From Methylococcus sp. (GTDB taxonomy: Bacteria; Pseudomonadota; Gammaproteobacteria; Methylococcales; Methylococcaceae), in NCBI GenBank assembly GCA_007280285.1, contig QYQA01000121.1, forward strand, positions 1-39,663: a stretch of DNA of 39,663 nucleotides, read 5' to 3'. The notes beneath the pieces were generated by a model, which saw nothing but the letters and a program-made list of their open reading frames with translations, searched no databases and was not told the origin of the DNA. The translations under genes and the position numbers were made by a program. This document shows positions 2,271 to 37,286 of the stretch, one piece after another; position 1 is the first letter of the stretch, and the number at the start of each line of letters is the position of its first letter.

Positions 2271-4142
2271 TCACCGTTCCATATCGAGAACGGCCTTCAA
2301 AGCTTCTTCTGCATCAATGATACCGGGCCCGCAGAGTCCCTTCAGGCTGGTCTGGCAGCTTGAGGGGACCTCCTTTTCCTCGACAACCTGGGTCCCAGTG
2401 TTCTTAACCAATTGGATCGTGGTCAGGGGAAATGGCCGCGCGGTGCCTTGGATGATGTTCTTGATTTTTGCCGGGGTTAATCGATGGTGGCGGTCGAGAG
2501 ACAGCATCAGCGATACAATGCCAGAGACCACAGGGGTTGCAATACTGGTGCCTTGATACCAGGCATAGCCCATGGCGTTGGGATCTGGTCGTTCAAGGCT
2601 GAGATTAACCGGTGCATAGATCCCAAATGGAAGGATGTGTTTTGAATCAATGACGGTTCCTGCCTCATTCATCACGTTCCAACGGGTTTGGCCTCCAGGT
2701 GAGGCGATGGAGACAATCTTGCCGAAACTACTGTAATAGGCGAGATCACCGGTCGGGCCAACGGCAGACACGGCGATGACCCCGCGGCACCCTGCGGGGG
2801 TGGACAGCTTCATATCGATCGAACTGTTGCCGCCTGCAACCACCACGGTGATGCCCCTTGATAGGGCGTAGTCGATGGCCGCCTGGTCACTGTCAGAGCA
2901 AGGAACATCAGCACCCAGACTCATACTGAGAACCTTTACTTTTTGGAGGTTGGGCTTCGTTCCGGGGACATCTTTGCCGCCGGCGGCCCAATAGATCCCG
3001 TCATTGACATCGTCAAAGGAACCCCCACAGGCACCTAAGACCCGAACCGGGACCACCCTGGCCTTGAAATTGATACCGGCAACCCCTTGATGATTGTTGG
3101 TGGTGGCAGCGACAATCCCCGTCATATGGCTGCCATGCCAGTCACTCGGGCTCGTATCGGTGCTGATGCTGCCAAGACACACCGCGGGTGTCCAATCGCC
3201 TTCATCCCCGGCATAGGGATCACGGCCATCGCCGTCCCGGGCATTGGTGGGGTCTGAGATCAAGTCCCAGCCGCGCTCTTTCATTCTTGGGCGATTGGAT
3301 CCCAAAGCGCGTTCGAGGTCTGGATGGCTAAAAAGGGCGCCGGTATCAATAATCGCAACGCCAATGTTCGATGTCCCTTTGGTAATGTTCCAGGCGGATT
3401 GCACATTGGCGCCCCCTGCGGAGGTCACTGCATCATAGAGGTGCCATTGACCATAAAAGTCGGGATCATTTGGGACTATCGTATTTTTTTTAGCCCACTG
3501 AAGGGGGTCCGCGTAAAGGACTTCCGACAAAGATTCTAATTGCTGTTCGATGATTCTCGCTTGTGATTGAGTGATGGCTTTATTGAGCGTTAGGACACGG
3601 CCAACGGTGGTGTTCCTTGAAAAGGTCAGGCGCTGGCCGATGGTTGCGGATAATTTTTCAAGGAGGTTGTTGTCTGGGGAAAGCGCCAACCGATCGTCCT
3701 TCAATTTAACCAAAAACTCTAAAATGACCGCGGGCTCTGGGGTCAGCGACTGGACGGCGGGTTTTCTGGCGGGTTCCGCTTCAAGCGCTGCCCAGAGGAC
3801 ACCCTCCAGCTGACTTAAGCGATGGGCGGCCGCTTCGGCCTGCTCGAGGGTGACCCAACCTGTGATGGAGAGAATCTGCGCATGGGTTCGGGTCTGACCC
3901 ACCGAGATCATTTGGACGCCGGCAATCAGTTCAAGCTGTTTTAGAAGGGCGGTATCAATGGGATGCGGCGAAGCCGCATCGACATCCTTCTTCAACATCA
4001 CCAAAAGATCAGGAACCATCCCGGCAGAGGTTTCGGTGACTACCCCTATGAGGATCAGGGTCGTCACTAGAATTCGGACGATCAACGGGAGTTTCGATGC
4101 CGGCATGAGGGTGCTATCACTCAGATTAAAAAAGGTCTCCAT
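2271..4142 (-). CDS. S8 family serine protease (subtilisin-like), secreted, with duplicated N-terminal propeptide-like region
   Basis: Catalytic triad motifs AIIDTGALFSHPDL (D), DWHGSHMTGIVAA (H), GTSIATPVVSGI (S). Hydrophobic signal segment LIVRILVTTLILIGVVTETSAG. Confidence 0.9.
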   Translation of the reverse strand: METFFNLSDSTLMPASKLPLIVRILVTTLILIGVVTETSAGMVPDLLVMLKKDVDAASPHPIDTALLKQLELIAGVQMISVGQTRTHAQILSITGWVTLEQAEAAAHRLSQLEGVLWAALEAEPARKPAVQSLTPEPAVILEFLVKLKDDRLALSPDNNLLEKLSATIGQRLTFSRNTTVGRVLTLNKAITQSQARIIEQQLESLSEVLYADPLQWAKKNTIVPNDPDFYGQWHLYDAVTSAGGANVQSAWNITKGTSNIGVAIIDTGALFSHPDLERALGSNRPRMKERGWDLISDPTNARDGDGRDPYAGDEGDWTPAVCLGSISTDTSPSDWHGSHMTGIVAATTNNHQGVAGINFKARVVPVRVLGACGGSFDDVNDGIYWAAGGKDVPGTKPNLQKVKVLSMSLGADVPCSDSDQAAIDYALSRGITVVVAGGNSSIDMKLSTPAGCRGVIAVSAVGPTGDLAYYSSFGKIVSIASPGGQTRWNVMNEAGTVIDSKHILPFGIYAPVNLSLERPDPNAMGYAWYQGTSIATPVVSGIVSLMLSLDRHHRLTPAKIKNIIQGTARPFPLTTIQLVKNTGTQVVEEKEVPSSCQTSLKGLCGPGIIDAEEALKAVLDMER

Positions 4143-7392: not shown

Positions 7393-7830
7393 CTAGGACT
7401 TTGTGTGTGGGAGTTTTCGAGGGGCTGGATAACGGCGTTCAAGATCGTCGAGGAAACGGTTGACTTGCCGAATGCTGCTTTTAAACATCTTAGGCGATTG
7501 CCCCTTGAGCCAGCGCTCAGCGCGTTGATTCGTGCCGGGCCAGATGATCAGGCTTCCGAGGATCAGAAAGGGGGTTCCAACGATGCCGGGCAGGAGGATG
7601 CCGAAAACCCCAGCGGTGAACAAGAGCCAGCCGATGTCATGCGGTAGTTTTTCAATACGCTCAATAGTCGCGACATCGACGTTCAGTGCGACCAGACTCT
7701 TTTCAAGAGCAATGATCTCCTCAGCCTCTTGATCATCGTTCAACGGTCTAGCGGACGCTGAAGGACTTTGCTCGGTATGGAGGTCCCGCTGGAGGCGGCG
7801 AATAGGCTGCTTGAGGGGTGGTTTTGTCAT
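7393..7830 (-). CDS. small membrane protein with hydrophobic hairpin (DUF454/PGPGW-like); probable last gene of the P-type ATPase operon
   Basis: IGWLLFTAGVFGILLPGIVGTPFLILGSLIIWPGTNQRAERWL hydrophobic hairpin. Starts 28 bp after the stop of the upstream minus-strand gene. Confidence 0.6.
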   Translation of the reverse strand: MTKPPLKQPIRRLQRDLHTEQSPSASARPLNDDQEAEEIIALEKSLVALNVDVATIERIEKLPHDIGWLLFTAGVFGILLPGIVGTPFLILGSLIIWPGTNQRAERWLKGQSPKMFKSSIRQVNRFLDDLERRYPAPRKLPHTKS

Positions 7831-7858: not shown

Positions 7859-10231
7859 TTAGCCGTTCATGCGGGGTAAAAGACGCCGCTGACTCCGACC
7901 GGACTCCTTGAGCTTCCGTTCGATTTGGCGATCCACATTGAGAACCCCTATGTTAGCAATGATCCCTGAGGTAATGCCGTTCAGAACACCGCCGAAGCCG
8001 CCAGCCACACAAAGAAGATTCGGGATCGTGGCCATCCCTGCACTTTTTTTGATGTCAGGCGCATAGGAGAGAGTGACGCTCAGCAGTTCATCGAGTGTCG
8101 CGTAGCAGCCCCCCATCAGGACCACATCAGCCGTGCGGGTTTCATCCGACAGATCTTCGACGGCAATCGTCGCGTTGGCGGCGTTGACCAGGAGTGGATT
8201 CTGGCTGACCAACCCTGCAAAAATGGCTTTGACACCTCGCTTTTGGAGACCCTCAAAGAACCGGCATTTCCCTTCTTGATCGAGATCACCGCCGGCCACG
8301 CTGATGCCGAGACGGTGGGCTAGTGCCTGGGTGTCTTTTTCAGGTTTGGATGAGATGAGAAAGACGTCATAGCCTTCGCGGGTGAGGTGAGCGATGGTCG
8401 CCTTCTGGACCGGTTCTTTTGAGTCGGCAAAAAGGAAGGTGGCCACCGGTTGGTCATCCATCAGGACCTCGAGCATCGTCTGGTCGCCCTGAGGCCCATT
8501 TCTCAACAGGAACTGATGATCGCCTTGCCGGGTGAGGATGCCCTGCTCATCGAGTCGGATCAGTTCTGGCTGACGTACAATCATGTCCTTTGCTTGAGCT
8601 GCCCGTGCCAGTGCTCCACTTCTGGCATCACCCAAGTAAAGCCCAGCCCCCGCGACATGGCGGAGTAGGTTGTCCGTATCAGCCAGCTGAGATTCGATAC
8701 GGTGGACCTCGAGGTCCATTTCAGCGAGTTTGGGATCGTCGCCATCGATAACGATGCATCGGCATTCTGATAATTTCATGAGGGCGCTTGGACGCTGAAC
8801 GACGGCACCCATCCTCAAGGCACTGCGCATGTGGTGGAGCGTCATTAAAGGAACCGCGAGGAAAGGACCACTGACCCAATCCTGATGCAAGATGGCGCCG
8901 ACCGTGATCAGGTCGCCGGCTACCCAACCAACACCTGCCGTGGCGAGGGTTGGCAGGGCTGTTTTGTCCCCCATCGACGCGACCTTTGCGTTCAGCGCCT
9001 TATCCTTAGGAATCACGATAGCGGCTTCGGTCAAGCGCTGGGCAATCTCTGCGGCCCTCGTATTGAGGCCGACGGCGGTGATCTTGAGGTCAACCTCGCC
9101 GCCAATGAGTCGAGACCCTTGATAGATCGCTGCACCCACGGATTTGAAAATGGGGTCAGGGGTTCCTCTGATGAGCGTTTCATCAACCAGGGCACAGCCT
9201 TTTAGGATCAGGCCGTCAGCGGGAACGATTTCGCCTCCCGAGAGGCGGAGGGTGTCACCCGATTGCAGTAATTCTGGATCAACCCGCTGCTCCTGTGCCT
9301 TTGAATCGATTCGCCGCGAATCCTCCATGATGGGCAGCGTCTGATTAATCGTCGCTTGTGTTTCATCGGCGAGACGTTGGCGCCAACGGCGCTGCCAGTA
9401 ACGCAAAGAGAAGTCAGTGAGCGCAAAGGCCAGAACCTGTCCGGTGACGATCGAGCAGGTCAGGAGCGCGGTATGGAAGAGGGGAACCCCGACCTTCCCT
9501 TCACTTAATTGCTGGGCGGCATCTTTGATAATCCCGAAATTAGTGACGACCAGAACCCCTGCGGCGATGGGTGTGACCGCCGGCAGCAGTAATTCGCCGA
9601 CGGTACCGATGCCTACCGTTGTCCCCGAGACCTTCATTGGCACTGACTTTGGGTCCTTGAGATCTTGAATATCAGAGTGACGACTATAGGCCTGCTCAAT
9701 AAGCGGGATCAGCTTTTCAGGGGTGATGCGCCGGGTGTTGTAGTGAATGTGAACCTGACCCTGTGACTCCAGTGTGATCGACTGAATCCCTGTCAGGGTC
9801 CTAACACTATCCTTGATAAAGCGCAAGAGCGGCGACTTTGTCGCAATGAACGCCTCATCTTCAACGATCAGATGGCCTTCTTTAAGGACGCTGATGGTGA
9901 GCGGCTGAATATGGGCGCCTGCGCGGACCCAATGCATCATGGTGCGCGCCTCAAGGTTTGGAACCTGATCTTCGCCTAGAGCATCCGCCTCGGAACCCAT
10001 GGCCCCTATCACCCGCTCAAGTAATCTGTTGTGGTTCTTTGGGTCTTTATGGTAGGTAATTCGCGCACGACCCTTCAAGGTATCGATGGCGACCGCCTCA
10101 ACGCCCGGGACCGCTAGTGCGCGGCGAGCGAATGAAGTGCCCAACTTTTGGCCTTTCATCTTCAATAGATCAGCGTGTTCGATCGTTATTTCACCGGGCA
10201 CAACATGGATGACGGGTTTCATGGGGGTCAT
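7859..10231 (-). CDS. degenerate (predicted catalytically inactive) P1B-like P-type ATPase homologue with two Cys-less HMA-like N-terminal domains
   Basis: Colinear with the ATPase at 11118-13820: GDTLRLSGGEIVPADGLILKGCALVDETLIRGTPDP vs GDLVAVHTGDMVPVDGHVVEGMAMVDQHALTGESTP; CIVIDGDDPKLAE vs TVLFDKTGTLTRE; KAIFAGLVSQNPLLVNAANATIAV vs KVCFVGDGINDSIALKKANVSISL; IPNLLCVAGGFGG vs VPNLACVAGVFT. The reading frame is intact over 790 codons. Confidence 0.8.
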   Translation of the reverse strand: MTPMKPVIHVVPGEITIEHADLLKMKGQKLGTSFARRALAVPGVEAVAIDTLKGRARITYHKDPKNHNRLLERVIGAMGSEADALGEDQVPNLEARTMMHWVRAGAHIQPLTISVLKEGHLIVEDEAFIATKSPLLRFIKDSVRTLTGIQSITLESQGQVHIHYNTRRITPEKLIPLIEQAYSRHSDIQDLKDPKSVPMKVSGTTVGIGTVGELLLPAVTPIAAGVLVVTNFGIIKDAAQQLSEGKVGVPLFHTALLTCSIVTGQVLAFALTDFSLRYWQRRWRQRLADETQATINQTLPIMEDSRRIDSKAQEQRVDPELLQSGDTLRLSGGEIVPADGLILKGCALVDETLIRGTPDPIFKSVGAAIYQGSRLIGGEVDLKITAVGLNTRAAEIAQRLTEAAIVIPKDKALNAKVASMGDKTALPTLATAGVGWVAGDLITVGAILHQDWVSGPFLAVPLMTLHHMRSALRMGAVVQRPSALMKLSECRCIVIDGDDPKLAEMDLEVHRIESQLADTDNLLRHVAGAGLYLGDARSGALARAAQAKDMIVRQPELIRLDEQGILTRQGDHQFLLRNGPQGDQTMLEVLMDDQPVATFLFADSKEPVQKATIAHLTREGYDVFLISSKPEKDTQALAHRLGISVAGGDLDQEGKCRFFEGLQKRGVKAIFAGLVSQNPLLVNAANATIAVEDLSDETRTADVVLMGGCYATLDELLSVTLSYAPDIKKSAGMATIPNLLCVAGGFGGVLNGITSGIIANIGVLNVDRQIERKLKESGRSQRRLLPRMNG

Positions 10232-10240
10232 TCGAAAGGG

Positions 10241-10435
10241 TTAGTGGGCGATGTAGGGCGTAATCAGGCCATGCTTTACCATCTCATCGAGGTCAGCGAC
10301 CACATGCTTATCTTCGGCATCGAGCACGTTATAAAGCTCCCGAAGGCGCCTTCGGCGTTGCTTCAGCTCATACCCCACGGCGGCGAGGAGAATGATCCCA
10401 AAGGCCGAGGTAATGATTTCAGAGACACTATTCAT
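10241..10435 (-). CDS. 64-aa single-TM protein, unknown
   Basis: MNSVSEIITSAFGIILLAAVGYELKQRRRRLRELYNVLDAEDKHVVADLDEMVKHGLITPYIAH: one hydrophobic helix followed by a positively charged then amphipathic tail. 9 bp upstream of the pseudo-ATPase start, same strand. Confidence 0.6.
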   Translation of the reverse strand: MNSVSEIITSAFGIILLAAVGYELKQRRRRLRELYNVLDAEDKHVVADLDEMVKHGLITPYIAH

Positions 10436-10477: not shown

Positions 10478-11056
10478 TCAAATGAGGTTTTCAGCACCAC
10501 CCCGAAGAACCTCGATAGCGCCTTCAAAGCCGTCTCGATGCAGCTGCTGCCGTATTTTGGCTTCGATCGAACGACTCTTACGGTGGACCGCCAGGAAATT
10601 GAGGAAATGCTGCAAAACGTCCATGGCCTTCTCAGGATCCTTGATGATGCCGAGGTTGAGGTGGAAGCCATGGTACTCCTTAGCGCCGGTCGTCTTGCTG
10701 CCGTGGAGATCCCGCGCCAGTAGGATAGGGTCCTTGCCGATCAAATGCGGGTGCTTCTTGAGGAGTTCACTGGATTGCTCGCGTGAAAGAATAAAAAAGG
10801 GATCGTTGTTATGAAGATGCGTAATCATGCCCAGATTTTGGCGTATCAGTTCCGGAACCGGCCCAATCCAGCCGCTGTCGATCAAGAAAAACTGAAAGCG
10901 CGGTAGCTCCTTGACCGAATAGCTTTGGGTTGGGGCCTCCATGCTCTCAACCTCTGGGATGGAAGGTTCCGTGGTCGTTGCTTGCGGCCTTAAAAGATTG
11001 GGAGCCAAAGGTTTAGTTGTTTTTGGCGATGACGGAGGGGGGCTTTTTTGAGTCAT
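10478..11056 (-). CDS. 192-aa hypothetical protein between two P-type ATPase homologues
   Basis: Complete ORF with a Pro-rich N-terminus and globular C-terminal region (PRFQFFLIDSGWIGPVPELIRQNLGMITHLHNNDPFFILSREQSSELLKKHPHLIGKDPILLARDL). Gaps of about 61 and 42 bp to same-strand neighbours. Confidence 0.7.
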   Translation of the reverse strand: MTQKSPPPSSPKTTKPLAPNLLRPQATTTEPSIPEVESMEAPTQSYSVKELPRFQFFLIDSGWIGPVPELIRQNLGMITHLHNNDPFFILSREQSSELLKKHPHLIGKDPILLARDLHGSKTTGAKEYHGFHLNLGIIKDPEKAMDVLQHFLNFLAVHRKSRSIEAKIRQQLHRDGFEGAIEVLRGGAENLI

Positions 11057-11117: not shown

Positions 11118-13820
11118 CTAGCCCGCCATTTTTTTGCCACTTGAGGCCTGAGGTTTCGCACGAGTCGCGATTTTTCGGGGTTCACGGCGGCTCTTGGTGG
11201 TTTTTTCCATCGGGGGTGATACCTCTTTCGTGGCGGTCGTCTCCAGGGTATCTCCCGAGGAAAGTGAGGTCTCGTCATGATGGGCGCTCAGTTCGAGATC
11301 GAGCAGATGACGGCGCTCGGCCTCAAGCTTTGCTACTTCCCTTAGCGGCCAGACGCCATTGGCGAGGGCGCCAATGGCGGCGACGTTGTTAGTCAATACG
11401 GAAGCGCCGACACCAAACCCTAGGGTAAAGACCCCGGCCACACAGGCGAGGTTAGGAACGAGGATCATCCCCCAGCTGCGCTGGATATTCTGATCAAGGC
11501 TCCTTGCGATATCCCGAAGATCACAGAGCTTGCCAAGGCCTTGTTCCATGAAGACGATGTGCGCGGTATCCGTCGCAATCGTGCTTGCACCCCGGAGCGA
11601 AATGGACACGTTCGCTTTTTTAAGAGCAATTGAATCGTTGATACCATCGCCCACAAAGCAGACTTTCTTGCCTTCTGCTTGGAGTTGTTCAACATAGGCG
11701 GCCTTATCAGCGGGCAGGACCTGGGCAAAATAGCGATCCATACCCAGTTCCTCAGCCAGTTTTCTAGTCGGGGCCTCATGATCACCCGAGATAATGGCGA
11801 GATGTTTGATGCCGCGCTCACGCAGCCCTTTGATGATCTCTTTGACCTCGGGCCTTAAGGCAGCCCGAAGTTCAAGGGCTCCGCCGAGCTGCTGATCAAT
11901 GGCGACCATGACCATGGTGTCGCCATCTTGATGGACTGCATCAAGCTTTTCGTCGATCTCAGTCGGAATGGCGATGCCTTCCATTTCAAGATAACGACGA
12001 CTGCCTACCCGGATGTTTTTTCCCTCGACACCCACGCTGATACCAAAACCGACTTTATATTGGGTGTCATCGGTCGGTGGCAACGTCAGCTTAAGTTCCT
12101 CGGCCTTGTGGAGAATGGCAAGGGCGATCGGGTGATGAAACTTTCTCTCAGCCGCCGCGGCGTAACGGAGAATGTCTTTTGGCTGAAAGTCATTAGCGGT
12201 CACGATATCACCCACCTCTGGACGCTCCCGCGTCAGGGTGCCGGTTTTATCAAAGAGAACCGTATCAATCTCGTTCATCAGCTCCAAGGCTCTACCATCC
12301 TTGACCAAGATTCCTTTCTGAGCGCAGAGGGTGAGGGACGACAACATCGCGAGGGGGGCGGCCATCCGAATGCCGGTTCCGAGATCACTGTTGAGGACCG
12401 CAACCCCAGCAAAGGGTCCAAGGGTAGAGAAGGCAAGACCGCTGACGGCGAGCGTAGGGATCACGGCGCGGTCTGCGAGCTTTTCGCCCTTATTTTGCGA
12501 GGTGAGTTTGTAACCTGCGGTATCGTTCAGAATCTGACTAATTTTGGCCGAAGCGGTTTCACTACCGGCCTGTTCGACCGAGACGAAAATTTTGCCAGCA
12601 ACGAGGATCGTTGAGGCATACACGCGGTCACCGATCCCTTTTTCAGCCGGAGTTGATTCACCGGTGAGGGCATGCTGATCGACCATGGCCATGCCTTCGA
12701 CCACGTGGCCATCGACGGGCACCATGTCCCCGGTATGGACCGCCACGAGATCCCCTTGAATGACCTTATCGAGAGGAACCTCAAGTTCAACCCCATCTTT
12801 AACCAGCCAGACCGTACGTGCCTGTTTACCAAAGGCGTTAAGGAGCATTTTCTTAGAGTTGTCCTCGGTCTTTTTAACCAGCAAGCGGCCAAAAGAGAGG
12901 CACCAGGACATCACGGCCCCTGGCAGGATCTGTAAGGTTCCTAGGCACCCAATGACCACTAAAGAATCAAGGACATCGACTCCGAGTCGTCGCTCTTTAA
13001 CCAGCACATCATAGGCGCCCTTAATGCTGGGGATCGCGGTATAGGCGAAAAGCCCTGCAGCAACCGGCATAAGGGGGGGGAAAACAAATTGGGCTGCCGC
13101 GGCGAGCGGCAGGGACGCACTACAGATCGCAAGATCAAGATCGAGTTTATCGAGCTGTTCTTGGTGTTCGACCGCTGCCAGCGCGTCATTGATAATATCG
13201 ATGACGCTGGTGGCATTCAGTCGGCGGGGATCAAAATCTACATGGATGGTCGACCTTAAAGAGTTGGTCTTGTAGCGGTCAACCCCAAGGACGCTCATGA
13301 GTTCCCGTTCAATGGCTTCAAAATAGCTGCTCTTGCGATAAAGGGCCGGGTTTTTGAGCTTAATCATTCCCGTCTTCTCGCTGATCACGGCCCATCCCGT
13401 CACAAGATGGCCATGGCGATGGTAATGAAGATTGCCGCCCCGGTCGCTGGCATACCGGAGGGATGAGACCTTGAGCTCCTTTCCGGCGTGTGGCTGGGTA
13501 TCCTTGCGATTTGGCGGGGTCGCTGCGGCGTCCAAAGAATCAGCCAAGGCCATGAGAACCGACTTAGGCGCATGCTGTTTGGCATCAAACAACACCGTGG
13601 CGCCGTTCCTCGCTGCAGGAATTTCAAGGCTTCGAATAGACGAAGTTTCGAAAATACCGCGAACAAAGCGCAGGAGAGCCTCTTCTTGAAGTAAGCCAAG
13701 GCTACGAGCCCCGCGGATTCGAATCACGCCGGGGTGTTGGACCGAAATCGAGGTCTTTTGGGAGGACTCCACATCGGAACCCGGGCCCTTCTTCGTCTTA
13801 CGTTCGCGCAAACCCATCAT
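11118..13820 (-). CDS. heavy-metal-type (P1B-like) P-type ATPase, catalytic motifs intact
   Basis: ALTGESTPAEKG, VLFDKTGTLTRERPEVGD, KFHHPIALAIL (HP), ISGDHEAPTRKLAEELG, VCFVGDGINDSIALKKANVSISL. Two N-terminal HMA-like domains without CxxC; no CPx motif in the corresponding TM helix. Confidence 0.92.
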   Translation of the reverse strand: MMGLRERKTKKGPGSDVESSQKTSISVQHPGVIRIRGARSLGLLQEEALLRFVRGIFETSSIRSLEIPAARNGATVLFDAKQHAPKSVLMALADSLDAAATPPNRKDTQPHAGKELKVSSLRYASDRGGNLHYHRHGHLVTGWAVISEKTGMIKLKNPALYRKSSYFEAIERELMSVLGVDRYKTNSLRSTIHVDFDPRRLNATSVIDIINDALAAVEHQEQLDKLDLDLAICSASLPLAAAAQFVFPPLMPVAAGLFAYTAIPSIKGAYDVLVKERRLGVDVLDSLVVIGCLGTLQILPGAVMSWCLSFGRLLVKKTEDNSKKMLLNAFGKQARTVWLVKDGVELEVPLDKVIQGDLVAVHTGDMVPVDGHVVEGMAMVDQHALTGESTPAEKGIGDRVYASTILVAGKIFVSVEQAGSETASAKISQILNDTAGYKLTSQNKGEKLADRAVIPTLAVSGLAFSTLGPFAGVAVLNSDLGTGIRMAAPLAMLSSLTLCAQKGILVKDGRALELMNEIDTVLFDKTGTLTRERPEVGDIVTANDFQPKDILRYAAAAERKFHHPIALAILHKAEELKLTLPPTDDTQYKVGFGISVGVEGKNIRVGSRRYLEMEGIAIPTEIDEKLDAVHQDGDTMVMVAIDQQLGGALELRAALRPEVKEIIKGLRERGIKHLAIISGDHEAPTRKLAEELGMDRYFAQVLPADKAAYVEQLQAEGKKVCFVGDGINDSIALKKANVSISLRGASTIATDTAHIVFMEQGLGKLCDLRDIARSLDQNIQRSWGMILVPNLACVAGVFTLGFGVGASVLTNNVAAIGALANGVWPLREVAKLEAERRHLLDLELSAHHDETSLSSGDTLETTATKEVSPPMEKTTKSRREPRKIATRAKPQASSGKKMAG

Positions 13821-13922: not shown

Positions 13923-14252
13923 CTAAGCGGCTTCAGTCGGTTTTGATTTGGCCTCGTTTAAGGCTTCAATCGCTGCGCGCCCGCCATCGATGAGACCTTC
14001 AACGATGGGGTTTTCCTGAGGAATCGAGCGGGCAACGAAGACCGTCGCATAGACCAAGCCGTAGGACAACATGTAGGAACTCGTGTAGGTGAATCGGGAC
14101 ACGCTTTGTCCCATGCCTGCGCCTGCTTCCTTGACCCGCTCACGCGCGCGATGGGCGTCTTCCGAGGCATTGTGAATGGCGTCACGCATCGCATCGGAGA
14201 TGGAGCGGAGCGGATCGTTTTCGACAGTATCGGCGGGTGCGGCTTTAGCCAT
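13923..14252 (-). CDS. 109-aa membrane-associated protein, unknown; first gene of the P-type ATPase operon
   Basis: MAKAAPADTVENDPLRSISDAMRDAIHNASEDAHRARERVKEAGAGMGQSVSRFTYTSSYMLSYGLVYATVFVARSIPQENPIVEGLIDGGRAAIEALNEAKSKP: amphipathic helix, short hydrophobic segment, helix. 102 bp upstream of the ATPase. Confidence 0.6.
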   Translation of the reverse strand: MAKAAPADTVENDPLRSISDAMRDAIHNASEDAHRARERVKEAGAGMGQSVSRFTYTSSYMLSYGLVYATVFVARSIPQENPIVEGLIDGGRAAIEALNEAKSKPTEAA

Positions 14253-27821: not shown

Positions 27822-29903
27822 CTAAAGCTCAGCCATCAGCCCGCTGTGTCGCTCCACGCGTTGCAGAACGGTCTTTTGAAGGATCGTCTGATCCCCGCTA
27901 TGGACGAGGGTGAACCACTCGGAGGCTCGAGTGACCCCGGTATAAAGTAATTCCCGGGTCATGTTGCCACTATGATGGGGCGGAAGGATCAACGCGGTAT
28001 GGGCAAATTCAGAGCCTTGGGACTTATGGACCGTCAGGGCGAAGACTGTTTCAACGTCTCCGAGCCGGCTTGGGAGGACCCAACGAACGCCATGGGCTCC
28101 TTCTTCTTGGAGGAAGGCAACCCGAAGGCTAGAGGATCCTCCTTCGCCCGGGAGCCGGAGGGTGATCCCGATATCCCCATTCATGAGGCCGAGGGCGTAG
28201 TCATTTCGAATGACCATCACCGGACGCCCGAAGTACCAGCCATCGTTCGCCGAGATCAGTCCTTCGCGGTGGAGGCTTTCCGTGATGAGGTTATTGAGCG
28301 CATCAACCCCAAAGGCCCCCTGTCTAACAGCGGCGAGAACCTGGAAAGTCCTATGGGCTTCGAGTGACCGGATGGCCCAGGCGGCAAATGTTTCAGGCAG
28401 CGCATCTTCTGAGGGCTCTGCTTGATGGATGATGTCAAGATAGTGGCGATAGCCATAACGCCCTGCCTCTTTGGAGAGGACGTCGCCCTCGATGACCAAC
28501 TGTCGAAGCGGTTCGAGGTCCCTCTCGATCAGGACTACTTCAGCGATGTCCCTATAGCCCTCGGTCCGAAGGCGACGGAGTGCTTGAACATTGCCATCCC
28601 GGATGGCTCGACCGAGGGCGCCGATCCCACTGTCCTCCTTGAATCGATGGCTATCGCGCAACATCACGATGGCATGATCAATCGTCGTTGAGGCGGGATC
28701 TACCATCTTTTCTGGCAGCGTTTCCCCGGTGGTTTTAAGGAGCCATTCCCGCATCGCTTCAGAATAATGGCCCGCATGAGCGCGTTGACACATTTCACCT
28801 AGGATCGTACCGGCCTCGACCGAGGCGAGTTGATCTTTATCGCCCAACAGGATCAACCGCGCAGAGGCAGGCAGCGCAAGAAGGACGGCGTTCATCATCT
28901 CAAGATCAATCATCGAAGCTTCATCAATGACCAGAACGTCGATAGCCAACGGATGCTGCTGATGGTGACGAAAGCGTCTGGAGCCTGGCTGGTATCCCAA
29001 AAGACGGTGTAGCGTCAGGGCCTTTTGAGGTAACACCTTGAGGCAAGGGGCTTCATCCTGAAAGGGTTCCATGGCCCATGAGCGCATCGATTTTGCAAGG
29101 GATGCGTTGAGGCGTTGCGCCGCTTTACCGGTAGGCGCTGCCAATTGAATCCTGAGGGGCATTGAAGGGGTTCCCGTGTCACTGTCCTCGCTCCGAATCG
29201 ATTGGAGCAGGGCGAGTAGCTTGAGGACGGAGGTGGTTTTTCCGGTACCAGGTCCTCCGGTGATGATCGTAAACCATTGTCGGGCAGCCAAGGCACAGGC
29301 GACTTTCTGCCAATGGATCGGCCCAATGCCCGGATCCTTAAAGAGATGGTTCAGGCGACGTGATAGATCTTGATCCCCGGTCGGATCCGACCGGGCCATG
29401 AAACGATCCACCCTTGCATGGATCGCCATCCGTACCTGGTTTTCATAAGCCCAGTAGCGTCTTAAGTAAAGTCGTCCTCGCTCGAGGACCAGAGGCGTCG
29501 ATCCGGCGCCGGCGCTGATGAGCGCTTCGTGTTGAATGTTTTGTTCCCATTGTTCAACGTTGAGGTCCTTTAAGAGGATATGAGGGCGCTCTTCAAAGAG
29601 GAGGTTATCCTCCAACATCTCGCCCAAAGGGGGGATATGGAGGACTTCGCAGGGCCTCAAAAGGGTTGCCTTAAGGTCAAGGCAGACATGGCCTCGGCCA
29701 AGTTGGTGACTTAATAGCGCGCTTGAGAGGATCAGTAGCGGGGGAGCATCGCTACATTCCTCTAGGAGAAAGCGTGCAAACGCCAGATCGACAGGTCTGA
29801 TCCAGTGTTGTTGACGCCATGCATTCAGAAGGGCCATTATCCCTGCGGTTTTTTGTAGCGCGGGCTGAAGACTTAGTGTCTCGGTCTGTGACTTAATCGT
29901 CAT
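27822..29903 (-). CDS. recD: exodeoxyribonuclease V subunit alpha
   Basis: ITGGPGTGKTTSVLKLLALL, VLVIDEASMIDLEMM, LILLGDKDQLASVEAG, TVHKSQGSEFAHTALILP, GVTRASEWFTLV. Confidence 0.96.
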   Translation of the reverse strand: MTIKSQTETLSLQPALQKTAGIMALLNAWRQQHWIRPVDLAFARFLLEECSDAPPLLILSSALLSHQLGRGHVCLDLKATLLRPCEVLHIPPLGEMLEDNLLFEERPHILLKDLNVEQWEQNIQHEALISAGAGSTPLVLERGRLYLRRYWAYENQVRMAIHARVDRFMARSDPTGDQDLSRRLNHLFKDPGIGPIHWQKVACALAARQWFTIITGGPGTGKTTSVLKLLALLQSIRSEDSDTGTPSMPLRIQLAAPTGKAAQRLNASLAKSMRSWAMEPFQDEAPCLKVLPQKALTLHRLLGYQPGSRRFRHHQQHPLAIDVLVIDEASMIDLEMMNAVLLALPASARLILLGDKDQLASVEAGTILGEMCQRAHAGHYSEAMREWLLKTTGETLPEKMVDPASTTIDHAIVMLRDSHRFKEDSGIGALGRAIRDGNVQALRRLRTEGYRDIAEVVLIERDLEPLRQLVIEGDVLSKEAGRYGYRHYLDIIHQAEPSEDALPETFAAWAIRSLEAHRTFQVLAAVRQGAFGVDALNNLITESLHREGLISANDGWYFGRPVMVIRNDYALGLMNGDIGITLRLPGEGGSSSLRVAFLQEEGAHGVRWVLPSRLGDVETVFALTVHKSQGSEFAHTALILPPHHSGNMTRELLYTGVTRASEWFTLVHSGDQTILQKTVLQRVERHSGLMAEL

Positions 29904-32900
29904 GTGAAAACGCTGCTCTCCTGTCCATCAAAGAGCGCATCCAGGTGCTCGATCAATGCCCTCGGCGGGCGTTCACTGAAAAGTCCGCGAGTTTCTGCAT
30001 GGCCCCCTCTGAGGAAGAAATAAATAGCGCCGCCCATATGACGGTCGTAGTCATAGTCTGGTTTTCTGGATTTTAAGTGACGATGGAGCGCAAGGAGGTA
30101 GAGAACATACTGGAGATCATAGCGTGCCTCGAGCATCACGCTTTCGATCTTATCAGGGGTGTAAGCAGATGAATCAGAGCCTAGCCGGTTTGATTTGTAA
30201 TCCAGCACATAGTAGCGATCCTCATAGAGGAAAACGAGGTCAATGAAGCCCTTTAATAGGCCATTGAGCACTTTAGCCTCAAGGGGAGGGCGCTTTCGTC
30301 CTTTCAGGGTGTCACGGCAAATCCGGTCATCGATCTCAAGGATGGAGACAGTCCGGACGGCCATCCAAAATTCCATCTCAGCTTGATAAATCGATAGGTC
30401 CTGAAGGGCCATCGAACCCGTTAGGATGGGTGAGGTGAGAGGCATCTTCAAAAGATGATGCAGCCCGTCTTCGAGCTGGTCGACCGCATGGCCAAAGCCA
30501 TGGATCGCGCTTTTCCGAGTGATTTCTTCACGGAGGAGCGTCGGCTGCTGCACGATGGATTGAAACCCCTTTTCGGCGACCCATTCAAGAAGATCATGAA
30601 GAAAGGTGCCGGCATCTGCACCTGAAGGGAAGCTATGGAGTGAACCCTTTTCAACGGTTGTTGGCCCAAGGGTGTTTTTAACCGACCATGGTTCTTGGGA
30701 TTCCTCTTGCAAGGCCGATCCGTAATGATCAGCATCGGGGGTTTCAGGGGGGGGTCCCCATGCTGAAGCGTCCCCCTCTGATGATCCTCTTTTTTTGAGT
30801 GAAGAATAGCTCGCAATCCACCAGTTTTCACGGAAACGCCGGACGGAAGATCGGGCTAAGAGAGGATGTTGCTGATCCTCTGAGCCGGTCCATCGTTGAT
30901 CACTGATCATGGGGTCAACAATCAACGCAAGGCGATTGGAAGCCCCCGATTGAAGGTGATTCATGTGTTCGATGAACGCGCCCCTAGGGATCGGGGCGCC
31001 TCCGGTCAGAAGATAGCCCAAGGCACTTTGTTCAACGTTTTCGGCCGGGCCAAACCCGACCCATGTGGCATAGCGGGCCCGAGTCATGGCCACGTAAAGC
31101 TTACGAAGGTCCTCCGCGAGGCGTTCCTCTTGAACCCGCTCCCTCGCGGCGATATCCGGTGTCAAGCTCACGCACAGATCACCTTGATCATCGTGCCATC
31201 GAAAGAGTGCTCCGGGTTTTGAGGCCTCTTTGTGCAGGAGGGCAATGAAGGGGATGAAAACGAGGTCATATTCTAGCCCCTTGGATTTATGGATCGTCAC
31301 CACCTGCACCAGGTCTTCATCACTTTCAAGACGGACTTGTTGAGCCGCTCTGCCGAGCCCTGTGCGATCGATAGATGCGCGTTGCTCCTGCAGAAAGCGG
31401 ATCAACGCATGATCGCCATCGAGCTTTAAGCTCGCTGCTTGGAGGAGTTCGGCGAGATGAAGCACATCGGTCAGACTTCGCTCCCCAGAGCCTCCGGCCT
31501 CCGGGTCTATCGGGTGGACTTTGAGGAGTCTATTTGGGACATCAAAATCATGCAGAAGGCGTCTAAGCATAGGAAGAACGCCCCGTCGTTGCCATCTCGT
31601 ATGGTAGTCCCTGAACTGGAGCATGCGCTGTTCGAGGGCCCTTTCATCGTGATGAAGGCGTCTGAGCTCCTGGTAGGAGCAGCCCAGAAGAGGCGTAGCA
31701 AGGGCTGCTCTTAGGAGGCGACTATCATCAGGCTCTGCGCACGCTCTTAGCCAGGCCTCGATCTCGGGGGCATGAGGGCTTTGGAAGACCGAGTCCTGAT
31801 CTGAAAGGTAAACACTTTGAACGCTTCGGGCAGCGAGTTCACGGCGGATGAGACCGGCTTCTGTTCGGTTGCTTACGAGGACAGCCAAATCCTTGGGGGC
31901 GATCTTGCGGCCGCTCTCTTGAGATTGAAAGACCAAGGCGCCGGTTCTTGAAAGATGGAGAAGATGGACGATTTCACTGGCGCAGGTCCTGGCCATCGCT
32001 AACCGGTAGGCACCAGCGCCCCAGGGCTTCAGATCATCACGCTCGGGCAGAGTCCAGATAGAAAGTGCTGTCTTGGGTTCGGTATGAATCACTAATTGCT
32101 CTTGACGGTCCTGCGCATCAGCGGGAGAGAACGGAACCGGATTGGCATCTGGAGACCTGAACAAAAAGGCGCCCCGTCCGATAGGGCGAGATTCTGCCAA
32201 AAGAAATAAGTGATTGGTCGCCGCGACCATGGCGGTGGTCGATCGGTAATTTCGCTGCAAGGAATAAATCGGTGGCAGGCAGTCTTTCCGGGCCTTGAGA
32301 TAGGTGTGAAGGTCTCCACCCCGGAAGCCATAGATCGCTTGTTTGGGGTCACCGATCAAGATGAGGGCCTTAGGGGTTTTATCGTCGGGGGCGTTGTAAA
32401 CCCGATCGAAGATGCGGTATTGGATGGGATCAGTATCCTGAAACTCATCGATGAGCGCGACCGGGAACTGTTGCCGAATCAGCGCGGCAAGATGGGTGCC
32501 GTTAGGTCCTTGGAGTGCGGCATCGAGATGGGTTAATAGGTCATTGAAGCCCATTTGAGAGCGCCTTGACTGTTCTTTATCCATGGCCAAGCGAACCCAC
32601 TGAGCGGCATGGCCTAGAAGTGCTGGAAGGGCATTCGGGAGGGCTTCAAGATCTTCTCTGAAGGTCTCCATCGCCTCAAATGCGGGATGCTGTGGCGCCG
32701 ATACTCCCTTGTCAAAGGCGTCTTTTAGGCCGCTTCGGGTCAGCCGCGACCAGGCCTTGGCGTCCACTTTGATTAAAGGCCAGATCAGCGTTTCATCATC
32801 TGTCCATTGCTTGAGCTTATCGAGCCACTCATTAAAAAATCGGGGCTGAAGTTTTTGACCATTCGCCGATTTATTGTCGACAGCGCTCTTTAGGAGCGTT

Positions 32901-33661
32901 CGGATCTCTTCAATCCAAGGGGACCATGTCTGCTTCATCAAGGCGAGTGTCTTAAGACGAACCCGTTCGGTCTGTTCGATAACAACGCGGGGAGGATCGG
33001 TTCCCTCTAACTGATGAGCTTGTTCGAGGAGACCTATCAGCCGAGGGCAAAGGCTCAAAGGGTCTTTGAAGAAAGCCCCGATGATTGTGGCTTCGGCAAC
33101 AGACAAGGGCGTCATGAAGGTACGCCAGTAATCTCGGACGGTGTCCACCAGGAGTTGATCCTTCTCGGCGACCAGTTCCTGGGTAAAAAGGGACCCACTG
33201 TCGAAGGCATGTTCACGGAGCATGCGCTGGCACCAAGCGTGAATGGTTGAGATGGCCGCATCATCCATCCACTCGGAGGCTAATTCGAGGCGCCTGGCGC
33301 ATCCTGGCCAGGTGGCTTCAGGGAGCGATAAGCGAAGCTGAAGGAGTTGGGGGTCCGACTGGATGGGGGGGTCTACGCCAGGTTCTACGCGGAAGAGATG
33401 GGCCGCTTCAAAGAGTCGGATTCGAATGCGGTCTCTCAGTTCCTTGGTCGCGGCCTCTGTGAAGGTCACTACAAGAATTTCAGGTGGCATCAAGGAACGG
33501 CCAAATCCACGAAGATCGCCATGTCCAAGGACCAATCGCACATAAAGCGTCGCAATGGTGTAGGTTTTGCCGGTCCCGGCACTGGCCTCAATCAGGCGGC
33601 TCCCCGACAGGGGGAAGCTCAAGGGATCTAGTCGTTCCAGGGCATGAGGGGCGTTAACCAC
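29900..33661 (-). CDS. recB: exodeoxyribonuclease V subunit beta
   Basis: LIEASAGTGKTYTIATLYVRLVL, VALIDEFQDTDPIQYRIFDRVY, LIGDPKQAIYGFRGGDLHTYL, TIHKSKGLEYDLVFIPF, nuclease motif GFIDLVFLYEDRYYVLDYKSNRLG. Confidence 0.97.
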   Translation of the reverse strand: MVNAPHALERLDPLSFPLSGSRLIEASAGTGKTYTIATLYVRLVLGHGDLRGFGRSLMPPEILVVTFTEAATKELRDRIRIRLFEAAHLFRVEPGVDPPIQSDPQLLQLRLSLPEATWPGCARRLELASEWMDDAAISTIHAWCQRMLREHAFDSGSLFTQELVAEKDQLLVDTVRDYWRTFMTPLSVAEATIIGAFFKDPLSLCPRLIGLLEQAHQLEGTDPPRVVIEQTERVRLKTLALMKQTWSPWIEEIRTLLKSAVDNKSANGQKLQPRFFNEWLDKLKQWTDDETLIWPLIKVDAKAWSRLTRSGLKDAFDKGVSAPQHPAFEAMETFREDLEALPNALPALLGHAAQWVRLAMDKEQSRRSQMGFNDLLTHLDAALQGPNGTHLAALIRQQFPVALIDEFQDTDPIQYRIFDRVYNAPDDKTPKALILIGDPKQAIYGFRGGDLHTYLKARKDCLPPIYSLQRNYRSTTAMVAATNHLFLLAESRPIGRGAFLFRSPDANPVPFSPADAQDRQEQLVIHTEPKTALSIWTLPERDDLKPWGAGAYRLAMARTCASEIVHLLHLSRTGALVFQSQESGRKIAPKDLAVLVSNRTEAGLIRRELAARSVQSVYLSDQDSVFQSPHAPEIEAWLRACAEPDDSRLLRAALATPLLGCSYQELRRLHHDERALEQRMLQFRDYHTRWQRRGVLPMLRRLLHDFDVPNRLLKVHPIDPEAGGSGERSLTDVLHLAELLQAASLKLDGDHALIRFLQEQRASIDRTGLGRAAQQVRLESDEDLVQVVTIHKSKGLEYDLVFIPFIALLHKEASKPGALFRWHDDQGDLCVSLTPDIAARERVQEERLAEDLRKLYVAMTRARYATWVGFGPAENVEQSALGYLLTGGAPIPRGAFIEHMNHLQSGASNRLALIVDPMISDQRWTGSEDQQHPLLARSSVRRFRENWWIASYSSLKKRGSSEGDASAWGPPPETPDADHYGSALQEESQEPWSVKNTLGPTTVEKGSLHSFPSGADAGTFLHDLLEWVAEKGFQSIVQQPTLLREEITRKSAIHGFGHAVDQLEDGLHHLLKMPLTSPILTGSMALQDLSIYQAEMEFWMAVRTVSILEIDDRICRDTLKGRKRPPLEAKVLNGLLKGFIDLVFLYEDRYYVLDYKSNRLGSDSSAYTPDKIESVMLEARYDLQYVLYLLALHRHLKSRKPDYDYDRHMGGAIYFFLRGGHAETRGLFSERPPRALIEHLDALFDGQESSVFT

Positions 33662-36600
33662 GTTGACGGCCTCGATCTTCTTGATGGAGGATCATCTGGT
33701 GCAGCGGCTCTAACAGTTGATGGGCCCAAGATTCGAAAACGCCCGTTTCAAACAGGGCTTTAAAACTTGGGAAAGCCCTTCTGAGATAGGGGTTTCGGAT
33801 GCCTTCTCCCGGGCGGCTAGGATCCCCTTCATAGGCCTTCCTGGCCTTTTCATGATCGTGCTCTTCGATCCAGGCAAACCCGGTCTTTAGCGCCATGGGG
33901 AGGGGGCGCTGCATGCCCTCAAACCAGGCCTCTAAAAGGTGATCAAGATGATGCGCCGCCTCATCAGAGGGCAGAGGTTCTAAGACCACCGAGTCCATCT
34001 TGCTGAGGATCTGAGTGTTGATCTTGCGGCCTTCAAGATTGAGTGCCAGATGGGTGACCCAGTGCCGAGCGATGACATCCTTCCGGTAACGTCCATCTTT
34101 CTTGAGATCGCTCGCTTCAAGAACCAGATGGAGGAGGTCACCTTGATCGTTGAAACGAAGGCCCTCGACACTATCAACGAGACGAATGACCTGCCCGTCG
34201 AGATGGATTTCATGATGGATGGACAGCGCGTCATTGTTTTTTTCATGGGGCCATTCAACAAGAATGGCCCCCCAGGATGGCAAGAGAGCTTGATGGGACG
34301 TCTTGAGTTCTTCAAGAGCCAGATCGCCAAAACTATCGGAGACTAAGGCGCCTTTTGCCTGATAACGGCGCATAAAGACTGTGGCTCTGTCGTTCAGAGA
34401 TGCCATGAGACCGTTTGATGGCGAATCGATGCCTTGGCTTTCGATGTTTTTAATGAACCCACGCTGATGCTGTATCAGTGCTTCCCCCAAAGACCAGCGA
34501 TCGAGTGGCGATAAGGTGAAGGGTTCAACATCTTCCGAAGGCTCCTCATCCCCATGAAAAAATATGGCGAGTGCTTCTTGAAAAAAGGTCTTGGCCGGGC
34601 ATTGGAGGAAGGCGGTGATCGCTCTTAACGTGAGCGGTTCGTCGAGAACAGGTGGCGGCAGTCTCTGTTCAATGGGATTCCCGCGGGGTGGTTCTTGGCT
34701 GTCTCGTTCATCGGCAGATGAAATCCATTCATGGGCGAAGCTAAAGAGGCCTGATGGGGGATCCAAGCGTTTGAAATAACGGGGACTAAAGGGTTGCAAC
34801 GGATGGACCGTGGTCAAGGCCTCCATGAGCTGCTTGAAACCAGGCACGACATCATTGGCGAGGGACCAACCTGCCTCGAGGTGATCTCTTAATTGCCCGA
34901 CGAGAACCGAGGGGGGTCTTTCCGTATGGTCGTTGATACTGTGGCCCACCCAGGAGATATGGAGATGCCGGCGGGCGGCCAGCAAGGCTTCGAGGAAAAG
35001 GTAGCGGTCATCTTCTCTTCGAGAGCGATCGCCGGGGCGAACATCGTGGGCCATGAGGTCAAAATCAAGCGTATTTCTTGGCCTTGGGTAGTCGCCATCA
35101 TTCATACCAAGGAGACAGACCACCTCAAAAGGGATCGCTCTCATCGGCATGAGGGTTGCGAAGGTGACGGCACCGGCTAAATACCCCTGCGATAGACCCT
35201 GGCCCCCCAAGGCCGCAAGCCAATGGTCTTTCACTATCGACAAAGGGAGCGGCTCCTGATATCCAGAGCGTTCACAGGTCACCCGCCAGTCTTCGAGTTG
35301 ACGTTCCATCTCAAGGACCGTCAAGCCATCGTCAGTGCCCGTCGGATCAAAGAAATCCTCTATCAGGGCATTGAGCGTCAGGGCCCATTCATCAGGGCTT
35401 CGGACCTCACTGAGGGCGCTCCAAGCTTTTTCAAGCTGGTCCAAAAATTCGATCAAAGGACCGAGTGACGACGCCTCAAGGCCTCCAATATCATCGGATG
35501 GAATAATCCCTTGCCATTCATCGACCGAATCCCCTGTGGCGTAGCCCAAAAGGAGACGACGACAGCCGAACAACCAGGTGTTCTGACCAACGGCATCCTC
35601 TGAGAGAAGCCCCAGCGCTGTTCGATGGGCACCGTGAAGCCCCCATCGAATATGGGCGTTGTGGATCCAGCGATGGTACAGCGGGATATCGGATGGTTTA
35701 ATCCTGAAGCGCTGTCTTAAGGCCACGACATCAAGAAAGTCGAGCACCTCGCTGACCCCGAGGCGCGCGTTAGGGAGGTTGAGAAGCTTTTCAAGGGCTT
35801 TGATGAGGGGATCACTCGTCCGGCGATTTTGATCCGCAAGGGTGAACGGAATAGCGCGTTCGCTCCCCGGATCATGGAGGCCAAAGACCGCCTGTATATG
35901 GGGAGCAAAGGCCTCGATGTCAGGGACCATGACCATAATGTCTCTCGGCCGAAGGCTCGATACCTCATTAAGAAGCGCCAGTAATTGATCGTGAAGAATT
36001 TCCACCTCTCGAAGAGGGCCGTGGGCGACATGGAACCTGATCGAGTGATCTTGCCGTGGATCACAGGCGGGCCAAAGGGGCTTGCTTTCTGATAGAGGGC
36101 GGAGGTCCCGAATGTCATCTTGGAGTTGCTGAAGGAGCGTCGCTGTTCCCGGCGATTCGAAACAGTCGATGCGTCGATTTAGGCCTTGTAGGAGAGGTTG
36201 ATACTGGCCACGAAGCGCGGGGTCATCGAGTTCATCGAGGAGTGCAATGAAATCTCGCCCCTGCCGCCCCCAGGCAGCCAATAAGGGATGGGCATGAAGA
36301 TGCAAGAGTTCTTCAGACAAGATCTCTGGTCTATTGGCTTTTCGGGATTGGCGCTGATGGCGACGAGGATTTAAGAGCTCACGGTCAGCAACGATGTCCG
36401 ACCAATAATGTTCCGAAGGATTCTGGATAGAGACGAAGATCTGCGTCCACTTTGAGAGCACCTCGAGGACTTCCAGAGACTGCCGAGGAAGGCTTGAGAG
36501 ACCAAAGATCATCAGTCGGCGTGGGAGTCTCGGTGGCCGCTCTAGTGAGCCCCAGCCCCTGGCCTTGTCGATAAAACGAGCATGGACAGAGGCGCGGCTT

Positions 36601-37286
36601 AAGACATCCTTGGGGGGATTTAGAGGCTCAGTGAGGGGATATTCGGCGACATCCAGTAAAAGGCTGCGCCACAGTGAGGGTTGCCAGAGGGCGGGTTCAG
36701 GCAGGGGTCTCTCGTGGCCTTGGTGGGTGATCAAGCTGTTAGACCCCCGGGCCCAGGCTTCTAGCCAATCCGATCGGTAGACCTGATATTGATCAAAGAG
36801 ATCGGCCAGCCGCTCGGCCAGCTGATAGCGTTTTCTAAGGTCCTGATCGTCAGAAAGAAAACGGCGAATAGGTTCGTAGAGAGGCTGGTCCAAACACAGA
36901 GGCAGAAGCTTCATCAGCCGCCAAAGGAGTTCAGGCTTGTCAAAAGGAGAGGATTCTGGGACGTCTAAGGGGCCAAGCACCGCGCGGTACACCTGCCAAA
37001 GGAACCTTGAAGGCAGTGAAAAGGAGAGGGCAGCAGCAATCCCTGAAGCCTTAGCGTCTGGAGGATCTCCACTAGCATCCGCCATAGCCATTTTAAGCCA
37101 CTGCGCCATGCCGTTACTTTGGACGAGAAAAACTTCATTTTCGAGGGGTTCAAGCGGATACCGGTCCATCCAGGCGAGAAGGAGGTCCCGGAGCGCCTCC
37201 AGCCGATTGCTATGGATCAGTAAGAGGCCTGGTTGATGCGAGGGAGGGGAGGTGTCTATCACAAGATGCCGGGTAGCGTCCGTCAA
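33654..37286 (-). CDS. recC: exodeoxyribonuclease V subunit gamma
   Basis: 1210 aa; LLIHSNRLEALRDLLLAWM...ENEVFLVQSNGMAQWLKM, RDIMVMVPDIEAFAPHIQAVFG, LLGMNDGDYPRP, followed by recB with 8-nt overlap. Confidence 0.96.
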   Translation of the reverse strand: MTDATRHLVIDTSPPSHQPGLLLIHSNRLEALRDLLLAWMDRYPLEPLENEVFLVQSNGMAQWLKMAMADASGDPPDAKASGIAAALSFSLPSRFLWQVYRAVLGPLDVPESSPFDKPELLWRLMKLLPLCLDQPLYEPIRRFLSDDQDLRKRYQLAERLADLFDQYQVYRSDWLEAWARGSNSLITHQGHERPLPEPALWQPSLWRSLLLDVAEYPLTEPLNPPKDVLSRASVHARFIDKARGWGSLERPPRLPRRLMIFGLSSLPRQSLEVLEVLSKWTQIFVSIQNPSEHYWSDIVADRELLNPRRHQRQSRKANRPEILSEELLHLHAHPLLAAWGRQGRDFIALLDELDDPALRGQYQPLLQGLNRRIDCFESPGTATLLQQLQDDIRDLRPLSESKPLWPACDPRQDHSIRFHVAHGPLREVEILHDQLLALLNEVSSLRPRDIMVMVPDIEAFAPHIQAVFGLHDPGSERAIPFTLADQNRRTSDPLIKALEKLLNLPNARLGVSEVLDFLDVVALRQRFRIKPSDIPLYHRWIHNAHIRWGLHGAHRTALGLLSEDAVGQNTWLFGCRRLLLGYATGDSVDEWQGIIPSDDIGGLEASSLGPLIEFLDQLEKAWSALSEVRSPDEWALTLNALIEDFFDPTGTDDGLTVLEMERQLEDWRVTCERSGYQEPLPLSIVKDHWLAALGGQGLSQGYLAGAVTFATLMPMRAIPFEVVCLLGMNDGDYPRPRNTLDFDLMAHDVRPGDRSRREDDRYLFLEALLAARRHLHISWVGHSINDHTERPPSVLVGQLRDHLEAGWSLANDVVPGFKQLMEALTTVHPLQPFSPRYFKRLDPPSGLFSFAHEWISSADERDSQEPPRGNPIEQRLPPPVLDEPLTLRAITAFLQCPAKTFFQEALAIFFHGDEEPSEDVEPFTLSPLDRWSLGEALIQHQRGFIKNIESQGIDSPSNGLMASLNDRATVFMRRYQAKGALVSDSFGDLALEELKTSHQALLPSWGAILVEWPHEKNNDALSIHHEIHLDGQVIRLVDSVEGLRFNDQGDLLHLVLEASDLKKDGRYRKDVIARHWVTHLALNLEGRKINTQILSKMDSVVLEPLPSDEAAHHLDHLLEAWFEGMQRPLPMALKTGFAWIEEHDHEKARKAYEGDPSRPGEGIRNPYLRRAFPSFKALFETGVFESWAHQLLEPLHQMILHQEDRGRQRG

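Follow-up and report, generated by a model that had tools for sequence, protein, structure and literature searches.

The analysed window, a stretch of 39,663 nucleotides from Methylococcus sp., carries on its minus strand a group of genes whose order (p109, an active ATPase, p192, p64 and a pseudo-ATPase) is kept across several genera, usually with p145 downstream. The conserved first gene of the operon, p109 (13923..14252), encodes 109 aa with one likely membrane helix. It is followed by a 900-aa P1B-like ATPase (11118..13820), in which TGES, DKTGT, HP and GDGIND are intact, by the 192-aa soluble protein p192 (10478..11056), and by p64 (10241..10435), a 64-aa protein with one likely membrane helix; neither p192 nor p64 has a Pfam match. 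The pseudo-P-type ATPase gene itself occupies 7859..10231, and p145 (7393..7830) encodes a small membrane protein weakly similar to DUF454 (E = 2e-6, below the curated cut-off). All of these coordinates, and those of the motifs given below, refer to the minus strand.

The p64 ORF is too short for the size limit applied in the ORF lists and came to light when the sequence separating p192 from the pseudo-ATPase gene was read. Its relatives occupy the same spot, just after p192, in nearly all operons. p192 and p64 keep together, and in two genomes (G021 and G012; loci L049 and L050) the duplication includes both. Among 399 phylum-sampled genomes, p192 was present in one, the window's own. A thioredoxin identity for p192 is not claimed, as the Foldseek hints were weak (best E = 0.06) and the window copy contains no cysteine, and a lead connecting p109 with DUF5132 was dropped, having neither Pfam support nor a paper in the literature. 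A scan for promoters and terminators returned nothing above chance. Elsewhere in the window, recD-, recB- and recC-like genes lie in a row at 27822-37286 (-) (Pfam RecD_N; UvrD-helicase and PD-(D/E)XK; Exonuc_V_gamma), and a 623-aa subtilase-family peptidase (PF00082) is encoded at 2271-4142 (-).

Homology and predicted fold of the pseudo-ATPase

The initial annotation had described the 790-aa product as a full-length P-type ATPase homologue with an intact frame. The frame is open throughout, and the occurrence of the same gene in independent genomes argues against a wrong frame or an assembly error. BLASTP aligned the protein with the neighbouring 900-aa ATPase over ~700 residues at 23% identity (E = 3e-37). 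Pfam identified E1-E2_ATPase (PF00122, 6e-18) and HMA (PF00403, 28.5 bits, above the cut-off), together with a weak, sub-threshold match to HAD hydrolases. No NCBIfam model matched at or above its cut-off, and TIGR01525 scored well below its own.

The protein is laid out as two N-terminal ferredoxin-like (HMA-like) domains without CxxC, an A-domain, a reduced P/N domain and membrane hairpins. Its AlphaFold2 model, built on a 24-sequence alignment (mean pLDDT 84.5), shows the two ferredoxin-like N-terminal domains, the A-domain, the P/N region and the membrane helices. The top PDB matches of this model by Foldseek were copper P1B-ATPases (4bbj, E = 2e-30), and KdpB was also among the matches. 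The homology claimed at the outset was supported by sequence comparison, profile search and single-protein structure prediction alike. Global TM-scores against the PDB matches were just 0.3-0.4, indicating that the domain arrangement is unlike any single solved state. By homology and by its A, P, N and membrane architecture, the protein clearly belongs to the P-type ATPase superfamily.

Between the DKTGT and SGD positions, the cytoplasmic nucleotide domain measures 133 residues, compared with 156 in the active ATPase. Conservation is strongest along the membrane hairpins (about 0.7-0.84), the last of which (7943..8023, PNLLCVAGGFGGVLNGITSGIIANIGV) is among the best-conserved parts, while most cytoplasmic parts reach about 0.4-0.66. 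Values are lowest in the N-terminal domains and in some stretches of the cytoplasmic region.

Replacement of catalytic motifs and purifying selection

Motifs were counted in an alignment of 24 pseudo-ATPase rows with 34 catalytic P1B-like sequences, the latter of which retain essentially all catalytic signatures. In the A-domain, RGTP (9158..9169) stands in place of TGES, and the catalytic Glu of TGE is absent from all 24 homologues. LGDA (8624..8635), with DA at the motif itself, replaces the nucleotide-domain HP, with His absent in 24/24 and Asp in its place in 22/24 (LGD), and GLVSQN (8198..8215) replaces the GDGIND hinge motif, which is intact in none and whose Asn is missing throughout (24/24). 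The nucleotide-binding GxGxxG motif falls in a gap in every one of the 24 rows. These replacements of TGES, HP and GDGIND lie where the initial annotation had placed them, as does that of DKTGT, and the orthologues do not keep the motifs either. For DKTGT the description can be refined: at DGDDP (8732..8746), Lys, Thr, Gly and Thr are gone in 24/24, but the Asp position is kept in the window copy (VID-GDDP) and in 21/24 overall, with E or Q in the other three. The Lys position is occupied by Asp in 21/24, and the residues and spacing that follow the first Asp vary among homologues.

The residues that replace the motifs are themselves conserved, both at HP, which has become LGD, and in the CPC region, where an ILHQDW segment occupies the CPC position of the transport helix. 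The HQDW sequence (8876..8887) opens this transport-helix segment, at the position of CPC in canonical P1B pumps, and its H449 and D451 are invariant in 24/24. CxxC occurs in none of the pseudo-ATPases, including their HMA-like domains. The active neighbour has a DLGT-type sequence (LGT) instead of CPC, and its window copy is also devoid of CxxC; among the operon's active ATPases, a single one contains it (G001, CLVC at residue 90). With both CxxC and CPC missing from the two proteins, "P1B metal pump" describes the fold rather than the substrate, and a specific heavy-metal substrate is not supported. Accordingly, the P1B assignment proposed earlier stands by homology only.

The gene shows the marks of selection. 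Frames are intact in about 25 pseudo-ATPase copies, and dN/dS between close pairs (Nei-Gojobori) was 0.09-0.30, compared with 0.03-0.14 for the active partner; values far below 1 agree with the initial reading of selection rather than decay. In a 78-row tree, obtained by a quick search with SH-aLRT support and no bootstrap, the pseudo-ATPases formed one side of a single branch (SH-aLRT 100). Pseudoenzymes are a known kind of protein, and a conserved homologue that lacks the catalytic residues and is under selection is what we found here. Judging from sequence, we consider it very probable that the protein is a selected, catalytically dead P-type homologue. Lacking the motifs by which a catalytic P-type ATPase is recognised, it should not be classified as a working enzyme of that type.

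Distribution and co-occurrence with the active ATPase

Within the window's own bacterial family (Methylococcus-related), 21 of 38 genomes carry the pseudo-ATPase. Full or long matches to it scored at least 500 bits, whereas active ATPases of the type in the operon scored about 250-366 bits. Outside the family, none was found in 251 genomes of the order or in samples of 369 class and 399 phylum genomes; since these surveys scored only two to four candidates per genome and covered the window's own phylum, absence outside the family is not proven. The best matches outside the family were <250 bits; DKTGT is retained in the strongest ones among those inspected. A contig scan returned two close relatives only, and a plasmid search yielded merely ordinary distant P-type ATPases for the pseudo-ATPase and nothing for p192. 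The pmoA/amoA family (PF02461) is present in 23 of the 38 family genomes, which thus include methanotrophs, and the genome paper of Methylococcus capsulatus (Bath) (2004) lists 12 P-type cation ATPases. Closed genomes are available for several carriers, which makes it probable that cultured hosts exist.

Across the 38 genomes, 18 contained both the pseudo-ATPase and the active orthologue, 1 the active gene only, 3 the pseudo-ATPase only and 16 neither (Fisher p = 1e-6, not corrected for shared ancestry). Genomes of at most 8 contigs comprised 7 with both and 5 with neither (p = 0.001, likewise uncorrected). One genome (G426) was counted as having both because a fragment of the active gene is present at a contig edge, and the three with the pseudo-ATPase only (G002, G013 and G015) are fragmented assemblies, in two of which p192 lies at a contig edge. 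G013 also carries tandem pseudo-ATPase genes (L056 1655-4045 and 4050-5246 (-)). In the single genome with the active ATPase and no pseudo-ATPase (G036), p109, p192 and p64 are missing nearby as well, and the ATPase (L065 3380-5710 (-)) lacks the N-terminal 133 residues.

The closed genome G010 carries its pseudo-ATPase apart from the active operon, and a second pseudo-ATPase lineage, "b", is solitary, with neither active ATPase nor p192 as neighbours, in several genomes including the window's own. The own-genome "b" copy (L062 14032-15465 (-) and L063 1-1017 (-)) appears to be divided between two contigs, C17 and C44, at their ends. The same genome has a second active ATPase locus (L064 2500-6621 (+)), where p192, p64 and p109 are arranged in a different order and no pseudo-ATPase is adjacent. 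Given the solitary paralogues and the unlinked copy in G010, the link of the pseudo-ATPase to its neighbour is strong but not absolute.

Possible roles and comparison with known P-type systems

Purifying selection, co-occurrence and co-encoding with an active paralogue make a dedicated non-catalytic role the best reading. The earlier proposal of such a role is supported in part, and the tie to the neighbour has the exceptions described above. More specifically, the pseudo-ATPase may be a non-catalytic partner subunit of the neighbouring active pump, a proposal to which we assign about an even chance. The analysis establishes homology and a predicted fold, motif loss, a single origin, purifying selection, a conserved operon and co-occurrence; inactivity, a physical complex, a direction of regulation and an ion are inferred. 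In such an assembly, the active ATPase upstream in the same operon would run the phosphorylation cycle, and the pseudo-ATPase, presumably incapable of P-type ATP binding or hydrolysis, would sit beside it through its membrane hairpins and HMA-like domains. It might gate or activate the pump, or offer a second ion-binding site at the invariant ILHQDW, and the assembly might be completed by soluble p192 and by two small membrane proteins, p64 and p109. Loss of the signatures in all homologues and their retention in the catalytic relatives favour a partner subunit, as do the dN/dS values, the single clade, the conserved operon and the co-occurrence. The same is true of the hairpins, which are most conserved while most cytoplasmic parts drift, and of G036, where the pseudo-ATPase is missing together with the small genes and part of the ATPase N-terminus. 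Against it stand the unlinked copy in G010, the solitary "b" lineage and the L064 locus, as well as the fact that known P-type pumps work mostly as monomers. A heteromeric P-type pump, with one catalytic and one dedicated dead subunit and the ILHQDW helix as a second ion or ligand site, is a more tentative possibility.

A partner subunit is best supported. Its main rival is a stand-alone role in the membrane, as an ion receptor, a sensor or a path for passive permeation, in which the transport helix rebuilt as ILHQDW would bind or pass an ion and the cytoplasmic domains would relay binding instead of ATP hydrolysis. The membrane hairpins and ILHQDW are the most conserved parts, and the "b" paralogues and the G010 copy need no neighbour, as expected for such a protein. 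However, in nearly all genomes the main lineage lies in a single operon with the active ATPase, and its presence follows that of the ATPase; we regard a stand-alone role as rather unlikely. Less probable by far is a changed chemistry, in which the retained Asp, Ser and Lys of the HAD core would carry out another phosphoryl reaction, such as that of a phosphatase. Besides the Asp (21/24), most homologues retain the SGD Ser (20/24) and the HAD Lys (17/24). With E or Q at the Asp position in three homologues, however, phosphorylation at this site cannot be common to all pseudo-ATPases. In addition, GDGxND has mostly lost its acidic metal-binding residues (first D in 6/24, last D in 2/24), HP and GxGxxG are lost, and the residues and spacing after the Asp are variable. 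Finally, a decaying duplicate en route to loss could account for the faster evolution of the pseudo-ATPase (31-43% identity between genera, compared with about 70% for the active partner), but local decay is ruled out by dN/dS and the intact homologues, and the conserved replacement residues and single origin likewise leave this explanation with hardly any probability.

With the partner subunit as the preferred reading, precedents are few. The initial annotation had allowed that the protein might belong to an already characterised subfamily with alternative motifs; none was found, either among NCBIfam models at cut-off or in the literature, where a search on pseudo, inactive or degenerate P-type ATPases returned nothing relevant. 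Within the literature searched, no description turned up of a conserved dead lineage whose gene accompanies that of an active paralogue, and we know of no heteromeric P-type machine with a dedicated dead P-type subunit in prokaryotes. P-type ATPases are treated as largely self-contained pumps, and the family is defined by its catalytic motifs. The pseudo-ATPase lineage, which preserves the full architecture without the chemistry and is encoded beside an active paralogue, would be a natural test of what this fold can do without ATP, whether in regulation, ion sensing or a heteromeric pump. Its hosts are Methylococcus relatives, and ion and copper handling matters in methane oxidation. In KdpFABC, a P-type ATPase works with other membrane subunits, but the partner, KdpA, is a channel-like protein and not a P-type homologue.

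The precedents are human TMEM94/ERMA, whose status is disputed, and a suggested heteromer of Petunia PH1 and PH5. One structural study of TMEM94/ERMA reports that TGES is absent, that ATPase activity was not detectable and that the proposed site held no nucleotide, whereas a later paper argues that it is the ER Mg2+ ATPase (PMC12134183, PMC13322241). TMEM94/ERMA resembles the pseudo-ATPase in having a P-type architecture reportedly without TGES, but it is eukaryotic, has ten membrane helices, is not of the P1B type and has no operon partner. PH1 and PH5 are both P-type homologues, one of which does not transport by itself, and were suggested to form a single pump; they are plant P3A/P3B proteins, and the available part of the source does not describe PH1 as lacking catalytic motifs (PMC10654040).

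Also among the closest known systems are the P1B-type ATPases LpCopA (4bbj) and a bacterial CopA (7r0g), which have the domain order, A-domain core and predicted fold in common with the pseudo-ATPase, while the latter lacks their TGES, KTGT, HP, GxGxxG, GDGxND, CPC and CxxC. With the CPC-less P1B-like clade next to it, formed by the neighbouring ATPase (11118-13820) and its relatives, the pseudo-ATPase shares a long N-terminus, a PNLxCVAG segment and the operon. That clade is catalytically complete, whereas the pseudo-ATPases form a separate clade.
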